From: Curtobacterium sp. 9128 | GTDB taxonomy: Bacteria > Actinomycetota > Actinomycetes > Actinomycetales > Microbacteriaceae | Direction: 5' to 3' | Length of the DNA: 64,000 nt | NCBI RefSeq assembly: GCF_900086645.1 | Contig: NZ_LT576451.1 | Span: 1,488,001-1,552,000 of the forward strand | In this document: piece by piece, positions 34,559-39,388 of the stretch | Numbering within the stretch: position 1 is the first letter of the stretch | How the letters are laid out: the number at the start of each line of letters is the position of its first letter | Made by a program: the position numbers and the translations under genes | Notes under the pieces: generated by a model | What the model was told of the DNA's origin: nothing | Database searches by the model: none | What the model saw: the letters and a program-made list of their open reading frames with translations, nothing else

Positions 34559-34939
34559 TCAGTCGACGATCGCGATGATCGCCTGGGGGATCCGCTGTTC
34601 GATGACGTCCCAGACGATGTTCTTCTGCGCCGCTCGGTAGTCGTGCGACAGGATGTTGCGCGTACGACGGACCGATGCGAGCGGGAGGTCAGCCGGGAGC
34701 AGCGCCGAACGGTCCGTCGGAAGCCTGCTCAGGAGGTCGTCGAAGTGGATGATCACGGCCTCTGCGGCTCGGTACGTCAAGCTGCGGTCGGCCATGAACG
34801 CATCACGTCCGTGTTCGACGATCTGCGCGCACTCGGAGAGGAGATCGATGAGGCTCGCCTCCAGGGCAGGCCAGCGGTCGATCGTCGATTCGGCGCGCGC
34901 GGGATCGACGCGGGGCCTCGGCGTGAACGATCCGGTCAC
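34559..34939 (-). CDS. HepT-like HEPN-domain toxin
   Basis: A 126-residue all-helical HEPN protein with the HepT motif R-x4-H-x-Y at Arg94, His99 and Tyr101 (in RNILSHDY). HepT toxins are ribonucleases, neutralised in type VII modules when the MntA nucleotidyltransferase adenylylates this Tyr. Its start overlaps the antitoxin stop by 4 nt, the usual antitoxin-first order. It ends 3 bp from the convergent XRE gene. An internal ATG could give a shorter protein. Confidence 0.85.
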   Translation of the reverse strand: MTGSFTPRPRVDPARAESTIDRWPALEASLIDLLSECAQIVEHGRDAFMADRSLTYRAAEAVIIHFDDLLSRLPTDRSALLPADLPLASVRRTRNILSHDYRAAQKNIVWDVIEQRIPQAIIAIVD

Positions 34940-35400
34940 AGCGGGACCGCTTGTTCCCGGACGTGTGCGAAGTGTTCGTCGACGACCTGGCCGTCGGTGA
35001 GGAGATCGACGGCGAAGCCCGTGATGCCCTCCACCGCGTCGGCGAATCCGCCGAGATCGAACAGCGATGCTTCCGGGCGGAGGGTCACGAGCAGGTCGAT
35101 GTCACTGTGCTCGTCGTCCTCGCCGCGCACGGCGGACCCGAACACGCGGACGTCGGTGAGGTTGAAGCGCGTCGCCTCGGTTCGGATCGCGTCGGCGTAC
35201 ACGGACAGCGGGATGCTCGGGCGCATGCGAGCCGCTGTCAGCAGGCGTTCGAGCGACTCGACGCGAGGGAGCTTCCGGCCGCTCTCGTATGCGGAGATCG
35301 TCGGCTGCTGCACGCCTGCGACGCGAGCCAGGTCCGACTGTGACATCCCGATGTCCTCGCGAGCGAATCGGATCAGCTCGGCTGCCTTGTCGGTACGCAT
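34936..35400 (-). CDS. MntA-like nucleotidyltransferase antitoxin with N-terminal XRE domain
   Basis: A 154-residue fusion. Residues 1-58 form an XRE helix-turn-helix (SQSDLARVAGVQQPTISAYE); residues about 60-150 form a minimal nucleotidyltransferase with the G-S-x10-D-x-D motif at Gly88-Ser89 and Asp100/Asp102. In MntA this site adenylylates HepT. The HTH fusion would let the antitoxin repress its own promoter. GAGG lies 5 nt before the ATG. Confidence 0.85.
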   Translation of the reverse strand: MRTDKAAELIRFAREDIGMSQSDLARVAGVQQPTISAYESGRKLPRVESLERLLTAARMRPSIPLSVYADAIRTEATRFNLTDVRVFGSAVRGEDDEHSDIDLLVTLRPEASLFDLGGFADAVEGITGFAVDLLTDGQVVDEHFAHVREQAVPL

Positions 35401-36680: not shown

Positions 36681-37460
36681 ATGCAGCACCGAACACGCCA
36701 GCGCCCCCGCGCGGCGATCGCCACCGCGACGGCGGTCATGACGGGAGCCCTCGGGCTCGTCGTCCTGACGGCCGGCCCGGCACAGGCGGCCCCGACAGCG
36801 ACCACAGCGACCATCGACGCCCCGGCGTCCGTCACGGTCGGCGACGACTTCGACGTCTCCGTCACGATCCCCGCAACCGCCGACGTCTTCGCGTACGAGA
36901 TCACGCTCGACGCCGACGAGGCGGCCGTCGCCTACCAGGACGGCAGTGTGACCGGTCCGGACGGCGGCTTCGACAGCGTCACCCAGGACGGCGACGAACT
37001 CACCATCGTGCACACCCGACTCGGTACGTCGCCCGCGATCGGGGGCGACCTCGCGAGTTCGATCGGCATGACGGCGACGGGCGCCGGCACGGTGGACCTC
37101 GCGGTCACGAGCATCACGCTCCTCGACGAGGACGGTGCAGCGACCACGCTCGACGCCCCCGCGGCGACGGCCATCGCGATCGAAGCAGCGGCGACCACCG
37201 CGCCGACCGATCCGGCAACGCCGGGCACCCCGGGAGGCGACCCGACGAACGGGGCCGGAGCAGGCGGTGGAACCGGCACCGGCGGCACCGCGACCGACGC
37301 GGACGCCGTGAGCGGTGCCTCCCGTCCGGCCGCAGGCCAGCTCGCCTGGACCGGTGCACAGGTCGCACCGTGGATCGCCGCAAGTCTCGCCCTGCTGCTG
37401 GCCGGTGGCGGCGTCCTCGTCGCCCGGGCCCGCGCCCGCCGGAACGGAGCCACCCGATGA
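36681..37460 (+). CDS. LAWTG-anchored cohesin-domain surface protein
   Basis: A 259-residue exported protein: a signal peptide (1-36, cleavage after AQA), a cohesin-like beta-sandwich (about 39-170) with VTVGDDFDVSVTIP and a closing AGTVDLAVTSITLLDEDG, a Pro/Gly/Thr linker (about 171-227), then LAWTG (231-235), a membrane helix (about 240-258) and an Arg-rich tail. LAXTG is the class E sortase signal of high-GC Gram-positives, so covalent cell-wall attachment is likely. Cohesins bind dockerins, and the next gene, overlapping by 4 nt, encodes a dockerin-like domain. AAGG lies about 11 nt before the ATG. Cohesin assignment is by pattern, not a search. Confidence 0.8.
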   Translation: MQHRTRQRPRAAIATATAVMTGALGLVVLTAGPAQAAPTATTATIDAPASVTVGDDFDVSVTIPATADVFAYEITLDADEAAVAYQDGSVTGPDGGFDSVTQDGDELTIVHTRLGTSPAIGGDLASSIGMTATGAGTVDLAVTSITLLDEDGAATTLDAPAATAIAIEAAATTAPTDPATPGTPGGDPTNGAGAGGGTGTGGTATDADAVSGASRPAAGQLAWTGAQVAPWIAASLALLLAGGGVLVARARARRNGATR

Positions 37461-39388
37461 CCACCCGGCGCACCACCCAGCGCGCCACCCAGCGCGCCAC
37501 CCAGCGCGCCACCCAGCGCGCCACCCAGCGCACCACCCAGCGCACCACCCAGCGCGCGACGCACACCACCAAGCGAGCTGCCGCCGGCGCTGCCCTCATC
37601 GCCCTCGTCGGCACCGTCCTCGCCGCGACACCGGCGCTGACGGCGCAGGCGGCCGACCCCACCGTCGACGCGAGCCCTGCCGCGATGCTCGCGCCGTACT
37701 ACACGTCCCTCGACCTGACCGGCGACGACCAGGTCACGACCGAGGACCTGACCGTCCTGACGAAGTCCCTCGGGACGACGAGCACCGACACCAGCTGGTC
37801 CGCCGTCGCGAAGGCGGACACCGACGGCGACGGCACCATCACGGTCGCCGACGTCGCCGCGCTGTCCCAGCGCATGATCTACGACGACGGCCCGTTCCAG
37901 CTCGTCGAGGCCTCGACCCTCGACATGCAGGCCGCGATGAACGCGGGCGTGACGACCTCGGTCGCGATCACGCAGGACTACCTCGACCGCATCGCCGCCT
38001 ACGACCGCACGACCGTGCAGGCCGGCGGACGTCCGCTGAACTCGATCATCACCACGAACAAGGAAGCACTCGCGGCCGCGAAGACCGCCGACACCGAGCG
38101 GGCCGAGCACGGGATGACGAGCATGCTCCTCGGCGTGCCGATCGCGCTGAAGGACAACTACGACACGAAGGACATGCCGACCACCGGTGGCTGCGGCTGC
38201 TGGGACGACAACCAGACCGACACCGACGCCGCGATGGTCACCGGCCTCCGCAGCGCCGGTGCCGTGATCCTGGCGAAGGCGAGCCTCGACGAGTTCGCGT
38301 ACGGCTTCGTGTCGGAGTTCTCCTCGAACCAGCCGGCGGGATCCTCGCTCCTCGTCGCGAGCCCCTACGTCACGACGCAGACAGCAGGCGGGTCCAGCGG
38401 TGGAACCGGTGCTGCGATCGCCGCGAACCTGGCGGGCATCGGCTTCGGCACCGACACCGGTGGGTCGATCCGCATCCCGTCCTCGTACAACCAGCTCGTC
38501 GGCATCCGCCCGACGGTGGGGCTGACGAGCCGAGACGGCATCATCCCGCTCGCGCTGTCGCAGGACACCGGTGGGCCCATCGCCCGCTCGGTGACCGACG
38601 CCGCGGTGGCACTCGACGCCGTCACCGGGGTCGATGCAGCCGATCCGGTGACGAGCGGCCAAACGGGCAAGGTCCCGACGTCCTACACCGCCGCGCTCGA
38701 CCCGGAGGCGCTCCAGGGCGCGCGGATCGGCTACGTCACGTCGATGGTCGGCACGAACGCCACGACGCTGCGTCTGTTCAACGAGTCCGTCGCGAAGCTC
38801 GCCGCCGCCGGGGCGACGGTCGTGCCGATCAGCAGCACCGCGGACTTCGCGAAGGTGCTGAACGAGGGCAGCGGATCGACGAACGAGTTCAAGCACGACC
38901 TCGACGAGTACGTCCAGAAGCACCTCGACCCGGACGTCACCGCCCGGAGCATCTCGGGCATCCTCGCATCGGGTGAGTACGTGCCGAGCCGGAAGTCCAC
39001 GTACGAGGCACGCGACAAGATCACGGACGCCCAGTACCAGGCGTGGGCCGGTCCGAGCGGGACGCACACGACGCAGCTCGCCACCGGCAAGCAGGTCGTC
39101 ACGTCGATGATGGACACGCAGGACCTCGACGCGCTCGTCTACCCGTCGGGCACGCCGTACGGCACGCAGTCGACGAACATGCGCCTCAGCCCGAACACCG
39201 GCATGCCGGCCGTGACGGTCCCGATGGGACAGGCCACCGCGGCCGACAACACGGTCACCGGCGGCGGCGTGAACCTGGAGTTCCTGGGCCGCTCGTACGA
39301 CGAGAGCACCGTGATCGGGCTCGGCTACGCCTTCGAGCAGGCGACGCACGCGCGCACCACGCCGGCCGCGTACGGCCCGCTCGGGTAG
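37457..39388 (+). CDS. Secreted dockerin-bearing amidase
   Basis: A 643-residue exported amidase-signature enzyme. A long Arg/Thr n-region precedes a signal sequence that ends AQA-AD (about 65). A dockerin-like double Ca-binding domain follows: Asp86-Asp97 (LTGDDQVTTED) and Asp121-Asp132 (DTDGDGTITVAD, canonical). The amidase domain has the Ser-cisSer-Lys triad Lys232, Ser314 (GGSSGG) and Ser337 (GTDTGGSIR). It hydrolyses amide bonds; the substrate is unknown, and a surface location suggests an external amide or peptide. ATG overlaps the cohesin gene stop. Seven Thr-Gln-Arg-Ala/Thr repeats extend the n-region. Confidence 0.88.
   Translation: MTTRRTTQRATQRATQRATQRATQRTTQRTTQRATHTTKRAAAGAALIALVGTVLAATPALTAQAADPTVDASPAAMLAPYYTSLDLTGDDQVTTEDLTVLTKSLGTTSTDTSWSAVAKADTDGDGTITVADVAALSQRMIYDDGPFQLVEASTLDMQAAMNAGVTTSVAITQDYLDRIAAYDRTTVQAGGRPLNSIITTNKEALAAAKTADTERAEHGMTSMLLGVPIALKDNYDTKDMPTTGGCGCWDDNQTDTDAAMVTGLRSAGAVILAKASLDEFAYGFVSEFSSNQPAGSSLLVASPYVTTQTAGGSSGGTGAAIAANLAGIGFGTDTGGSIRIPSSYNQLVGIRPTVGLTSRDGIIPLALSQDTGGPIARSVTDAAVALDAVTGVDAADPVTSGQTGKVPTSYTAALDPEALQGARIGYVTSMVGTNATTLRLFNESVAKLAAAGATVVPISSTADFAKVLNEGSGSTNEFKHDLDEYVQKHLDPDVTARSISGILASGEYVPSRKSTYEARDKITDAQYQAWAGPSGTHTTQLATGKQVVTSMMDTQDLDALVYPSGTPYGTQSTNMRLSPNTGMPAVTVPMGQATAADNTVTGGGVNLEFLGRSYDESTVIGLGYAFEQATHARTTPAAYGPLG
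37475..37558 (+). repeat. Seven tandem 12-bp repeats inside the amidase signal peptide
   Basis: Seven in-frame 12-bp units encode Thr-Gln-Arg-(Ala/Thr) at residues 7-34. They lengthen the basic n-region to about 40 residues, unusual for a Sec signal. Slippage would change length by four residues without shifting frame. Confidence 0.9.

Follow-up and report, generated by a model that had tools for sequence, protein, structure and literature searches.

What do a cohesin and a dockerin do side by side in an actinobacterial genome, on two proteins with signal peptides of which one ends in a sorting signal and the other in an amidase? The window, the whole 64,000-nucleotide stretch of Curtobacterium sp. 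9128 DNA analysed here, carries gene A (36681–37460), encoding a 259-aa anchor protein with a signal peptide, a cohesin, a linker and a LAWTG sorting signal, and gene B (37457–39388), encoding a 643-aa dockerin-amidase; all features given below lie on the plus strand unless marked otherwise. The two genes have 4 nt in common, the stop of gene A and the start of gene B lying within ATGA (37457–37460). The answer that we favour, and hold to be likely, is a one-to-one cohesin–dockerin couple by which a peptide-amidase-like enzyme is kept at the cell wall. A sequence-only reading had described the coordinates, the overlap, both signal peptides, the LAWTG motif with its helix and basic tail and the two Ca loops as they are found here, and that observation is confirmed; its interpretation as a wall-tethering system is partly supported, and is too narrow on tethering.

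The signal peptide of protein A, as read from the sequence, extends to GPAQA (36681–36788) and is followed by the cohesin domain (36786–37187, PF00963), a Pro/Thr/Gly linker, and a C-terminal region (37341–37457), kept in relatives, in which LAWTG (37341–37355) precedes a membrane helix and then a basic tail. NCBIfam LAXTG/LAVTG models match this tail weakly, below their cut-off. With the Pfam Cohesin model, full-length protein A scores 22.1 bits (E = 1.9e-4), slightly below the cut-off of 24.1, and the isolated domain scores 24.5 bits, slightly above it; the same model is matched by 41 of the 42 members of the gene A cohesin family (best E = 1e-13), in agreement with the cohesin assignment made earlier. 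When run over the whole host genome the Pfam model returned no match; gene A, a divergent member, is recovered by a search with the family alignment. The closest solved cohesin by sequence is NagJ of Clostridium perfringens (E = 1e-4 with protein A). The family profile matches NagJ over a near-complete domain (E = 3e-9) and a type II scaffoldin cohesin in two stretches (E = 4e-10). The most conserved stretch of the family is T-R/K-L-G-T/S-S-P, with L79, G80 and S82 invariant, and is a candidate dockerin contact; the comparison of the family profile with the CipA cohesin covers 35 columns, close to the start, so that this motif is not placed at the known dockerin-binding face.

The fold was assessed on AlphaFold2 (AF2) models of L110, a homologous natural fusion from Microbacterium sp. 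2FI. In two such models the L110 cohesin domain is predicted with a pLDDT of ∼90. A Foldseek search with the first model retrieves 2jh2 at E = 4e-10, while the top matches of the second are the C. perfringens cohesins 2vo8, 2w1n and 2jh2 with Z 17.3–17.4 (for 2vo8, Z 17.4 and rmsd 1.9 over 128 residues). The NagJ and GH33 cohesins of C. perfringens are the closest folds, and many cellulosomal cohesins rank next, so the cohesin beta-sandwich is predicted for this family by way of its homologue L110.

Protein B begins with a signal peptide that ends in TAQA (37457–37651, read from the sequence) and has a long repetitive n-region. A type I dockerin follows at residues 86–139 (37712–37873), scoring 29.3 bits with Dockerin_1 (PF00404) against a cut-off of 22.9, as the sequence-only reading had anticipated. 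Sequence and alignment place Ca loop 1 at Asp86–Asp97 (37712–37747, DLTGDDQVTTED) and Ca loop 2 at Asp121–Asp132 (37817–37852, DTDGDGTITVAD). In both loops, positions 1, 5 and 12 are Asp in 98–100% of 91 sequences, and position 12 of each loop is Asp in 91/91. In the second L110 model the dockerin is folded: each Ca loop is followed by a predicted helix, with a further short helix in between. Searched against the PDB, the dockerin family profile places calmodulins at the top, and EF-hand proteins, not dockerins, are among the matches listed, so that the identity of the dockerin is not final from sequence alone. The two domains might accordingly only resemble a cohesin and a dockerin and not bind each other, the domain of protein B supporting the amidase as an EF-hand-like Ca module and protein A being a surface protein co-transcribed with it for some other reason. 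The calmodulin matches suit this explanation, which we nevertheless consider very improbable: canonical EF-hands have Glu at position 12, where dockerins and all 91 sequences examined here have Asp, and the EF-hand Pfam models stay below their cut-offs on protein B, while Dockerin_1 exceeds its own. A stronger argument for dockerin identity than the sequence is the cohesin that is always at hand, described below. As a separate observation, the n-region of gene B contains a 12-base tandem repeat in 8 copies (37460–37555, ACCACCCAGCGC), encoding a repeated T-T/A-Q-R. In L032, the closest relative, whose protein is 97% identical, the repeat is present in a short version only, suggesting that it was recently expanded here.

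When the two domains were modelled together, the dockerin of L110 stayed unfolded with alignment A4, and with alignment A12 both domains folded at a pTM of 0.52, at which their relative placement is not fixed and no cohesin–dockerin interface is claimed. Both alignments, which were inspected by eye before use, include numerous truncated L110 copies as a guide to the aligner and are therefore of small real depth (22 cohesins and 5 dockerins in A12). The mean covariation is higher between cohesin and dockerin than between cohesin and amidase, a difference confounded by column variability at ∼47 effective sequences and given no weight here. That structure prediction leaves the interface unestablished is the second point in favour of an EF-hand-like module with no cohesin partner.

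The remainder of protein B (37889–39385) is an amidase-signature enzyme, as both profile and alignment indicate. It scores 254.7 bits with Amidase (PF01425), in line with the amidase named by the sequence-only reading, and all of the NCBIfam amidase models listed for it score below cut-off. Its closest solved relatives are the peptide amidases 5ac3 and 1m21, aligned over the entire amidase domain at E ∼1e-73, and Lys232, Ser313 and Ser337 align with the peptide amidase Lys and both of its Ser residues. Of the triad first proposed, Lys232/Ser314/Ser337, the Lys and the nucleophile stand, and the cis-Ser is probably Ser313, one residue earlier. Ser313 is the first Ser of GGSSGG and lies 24 residues ahead of the nucleophile, with Ser314 as its neighbour; in Pam and FAAH the cis-Ser likewise precedes the nucleophile by 24 residues, and it is this spacing, together with the alignment with Pam, that points to Ser313. 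Since protein B is most like Pam, its expected activity is the extracellular hydrolysis of primary amides or peptide amides. Assignment as an N-acetylmuramoyl-L-alanine (peptidoglycan) amidase was considered and rejected, the domain belonging to PF01425, the amidase-signature family.

When 84,980 species genomes were scanned for gene B, 80 loci emerged, of which 6 end before the adjoining gene. At every one of the 74 loci with flank, a cohesin lies beside the dockerin-amidase or is fused to it, and across all samples the same holds for 97 of 97 distinct intact dockerin-amidases with flanking DNA. The loci come from Curtobacterium, Leifsonia, Microbacterium, Frigoribacterium, Mycetocola, Herbiconiux, Cellulosimicrobium, Cellulomonas, Georgenia, Isoptericola, Demequina, Nocardioides and other genera. 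Where the cohesin gene is upstream, the exact 4-base overlap of this window recurs in 67 of 69 relatives (one base in the other 2), and the cohesin gene finishes with a sorting motif, mostly LAxTG, in 69/69. Gene order varies, the cohesin gene being downstream in several lineages. Among 297 genomes of the host's order, 17 have the dockerin-amidase, and a family cohesin occurs in these 17 and in none of the others, each pair being adjacent or fused. Related amidases that lack a dockerin, which belong to the same wider group and have at most ∼48% identity to the dockerin clade, have a flanking cohesin in 0/22 cases (13 at order level and 9 at class level). Genome G584 has both kinds, with a cohesin at the dockerin copy (L147) and none at the other (L158).

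In a midpoint-rooted tree the dockerin-amidases form one clade (support 1.0), and a single branch marks the appearance of both the dockerin and its cohesin partner. Because the loci have a common ancestry, they cannot be counted as independent events. The side-by-side recurrence in about a hundred genomes puts the pair far beyond chance. The link between cohesin and dockerin-amidase is kept through changes of gene order and through three fusion architectures, and this exact co-occurrence, with the fusions, points to a joint function, against an EF-hand-like module that merely lies next to an unrelated surface protein. Some individual loci deviate in detail. At L094 (4780–7641) the cohesin gene is frameshifted after the domain and the adjoining dockerin lacks its middle, from joint decay or an assembly artefact. 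In the complete genome of Demequina sediminis (L060, 5256–6061) a cohesin frameshift falls directly after TRLGTSP, and the anchor can still be read in the other frame. A 3.5-kb contig labelled Stenotrophomonas maltophilia (L090) carries an actinobacterial dockerin-amidase and is probably contamination.

The fusions place all parts on a single chain, in the order cohesin–dockerin–amidase in L110, dockerin–amidase–cohesin in L111, and dockerin–amidase–cohesin followed by a LAVTG anchor in L128. The wall anchor is a frequent, lineage-specific and not a universal part of the unit. A sorting signal is present on the cohesin chain at 92 loci, consistent with the wall tether proposed by the sequence-only reading, and is absent at the Nocardioides-type loci L095 and L145–L149, at L086 (Isoptericola) and L120 and in the Microbacterium and Nocardioides fusions L110 and L111, to which that proposal does not extend. 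In the Nocardioides-type loci L145–L149 the downstream cohesin partner has extra C-terminal repeats instead of the signal. The partners and fusions without a sorting signal indicate that the conserved unit is cohesin, dockerin and amidase; in L128, where the enzyme's own chain bears an anchor, docking is unneeded for reaching the wall.

Because the anchor is not universal, it is a live rival that the contact itself holds or regulates the enzyme. The cohesin–dockerin contact would then act mainly as a clamp on the amidase, by stabilising, positioning, regulating or oligomerising it, with the tether secondary and lineage-specific, as the signal-less Nocardioides-type and Isoptericola partners and the single-chain L110, L111 and L128 (the last with its own anchor) would suggest. 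We regard this as unlikely, given that the majority of loci, 92, keep the sorting signal on the cohesin chain and that known cohesin–dockerin systems serve attachment. A self-contained actinobacterial couple with the primary job of holding and regulating one extracellular amidase, as a clamp that has outlasted rearrangements and fusions, its tether gained or lost by lineage, is possible if doubtful; were it true, a cohesin–dockerin contact would be in use outside scaffold assembly.

The inventory of the host genome bears on whether the couple is closed. A six-frame search finds one dockerin, that on the amidase (33.5 bits), and a family-alignment search finds one cohesin of the gene A family; no other partner for protein A or protein B was found in the genome. 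One anchor and one enzyme is also what had been proposed from the sequence, together with a non-cellulosomal nature and class E sortases, and these claims hold. Two class E sortases are encoded (169 bits each, cut-off 160), along with one class F sortase, and protein A bears the signs of a class E substrate, with the LAWTG motif, the helix and the basic tail in a genome that encodes such a sortase. The two class E copies (L142 and L143, at ∼644 kb and 1268 kb) lie far apart, inside an identical 857-base block. Membership of a cellulosome was rejected, there being one cohesin, one dockerin and no multi-cohesin scaffoldin; several dockerin enzymes, mostly glycoside hydrolases, would mark a cellulosome, and here the sole dockerin is on an amidase. 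In some cohesin–dockerin pairs elsewhere binding crosses species, and protein A could by analogy be an open adaptor, displaying or recruiting dockerin proteins from other cells or species, while the dockerin of protein B docks elsewhere. The sole dockerin and the sole family cohesin of this genome adjoin each other and are fused in some relatives, which makes such an adaptor extremely improbable. Elsewhere in the window, at 34559–35400 on the minus strand, a gene for an HTH/nucleotidyltransferase protein adjoins one for a HepT-like RNase, and the two look like an MNT/HepT toxin–antitoxin pair whose nucleotidyltransferase carries a fused HTH.

For the one-to-one couple the following course can be proposed. 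Genes A and B would be translationally coupled, their overlap giving matched amounts of the two products, and both products would be secreted. A class E sortase would use LAWTG to attach protein A to the cell wall, exposing a single cohesin on the outside. In the presence of Ca2+ the dockerin of protein B would dock on this cohesin, one enzyme per anchor, keeping the amidase on the surface. We infer the binding, its Ca2+ dependence and the wall attachment; the independent domain matches, the L110 fold, the conservation of the Ca loops, the gene overlap, the exact co-occurrence, the fusions and the class E sortases are together best explained in this way.

A literature search, in which coverage of subscription journals was thin, returned no description of a cohesin/dockerin-amidase pair. 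Non-cellulosomal cohesin- and dockerin-like modules across the three domains of life have reportedly been surveyed, and the single domains of the pair may already be listed there. As a minimal pair in one operon, spread over about a hundred actinobacterial genomes, it offers a clean system for studying the evolution of specificity, suits the study of docking roles besides assembly, and is a candidate source of orthogonal couples for Gram-positive surface display. It also points to an unstudied peptide-amidase-like enzyme, putatively held at the surface.

Cohesin–dockerin interactions are best known from anaerobic cellulosomes, in which dockerin-bearing enzymes form a pool and compete for many cohesins; the gene A/B unit resembles, on a miniature scale, the way in which clostridial cellulosomes attach their enzymes. 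The amidase domain of protein B resembles Pam of Stenotrophomonas maltophilia (1m21, 1m22) and 5ac3, which are peptide amidases without a dockerin. The non-cellulosomal cohesin 2xdh of Archaeoglobus fulgidus resembles the L110 model in fold (Z 14.5, rmsd 2.9, 126 residues), is archaeal, unlike gene A, and to our knowledge has no linked amidase. Nearer in kind are the X82 cohesin/dockerin proteins of C. perfringens (NagJ, NagH and NanJ), which share with the pair single non-cellulosomal cohesins and dockerins on secreted enzymes. That organism has five Coh and five Doc proteins, one protein carrying both; there, glycoside hydrolases bear the cohesins and dockerins, which bring several enzymes together (PMC12997984). 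The cohesin chain of the present pair, in contrast, carries no enzyme, mostly has a sorting signal, and is matched with one partner, an amidase. Anchoring scaffoldins of the Limousia cSca5 type use a cohesin and a C-terminal sorting motif to fix dockerin proteins to the wall, and gut mucinolysomes likewise have a sortase-anchored scaffoldin (PMC12997984). Protein A has the same combination of cohesin and C-terminal sorting motif as these cellulosome and mucinolysome anchors, whereas the gene A/B unit lacks a multi-cohesin scaffoldin, further dockerin enzymes and a glycosidase, and its motif is of the LAxTG type paired with class E sortases. The amidase cargo, already picked out by the sequence-only reading, the actinobacterial lineage, the strict one-to-one operon pairing and the natural fusions set the pair apart from the known non-cellulosomal cases.
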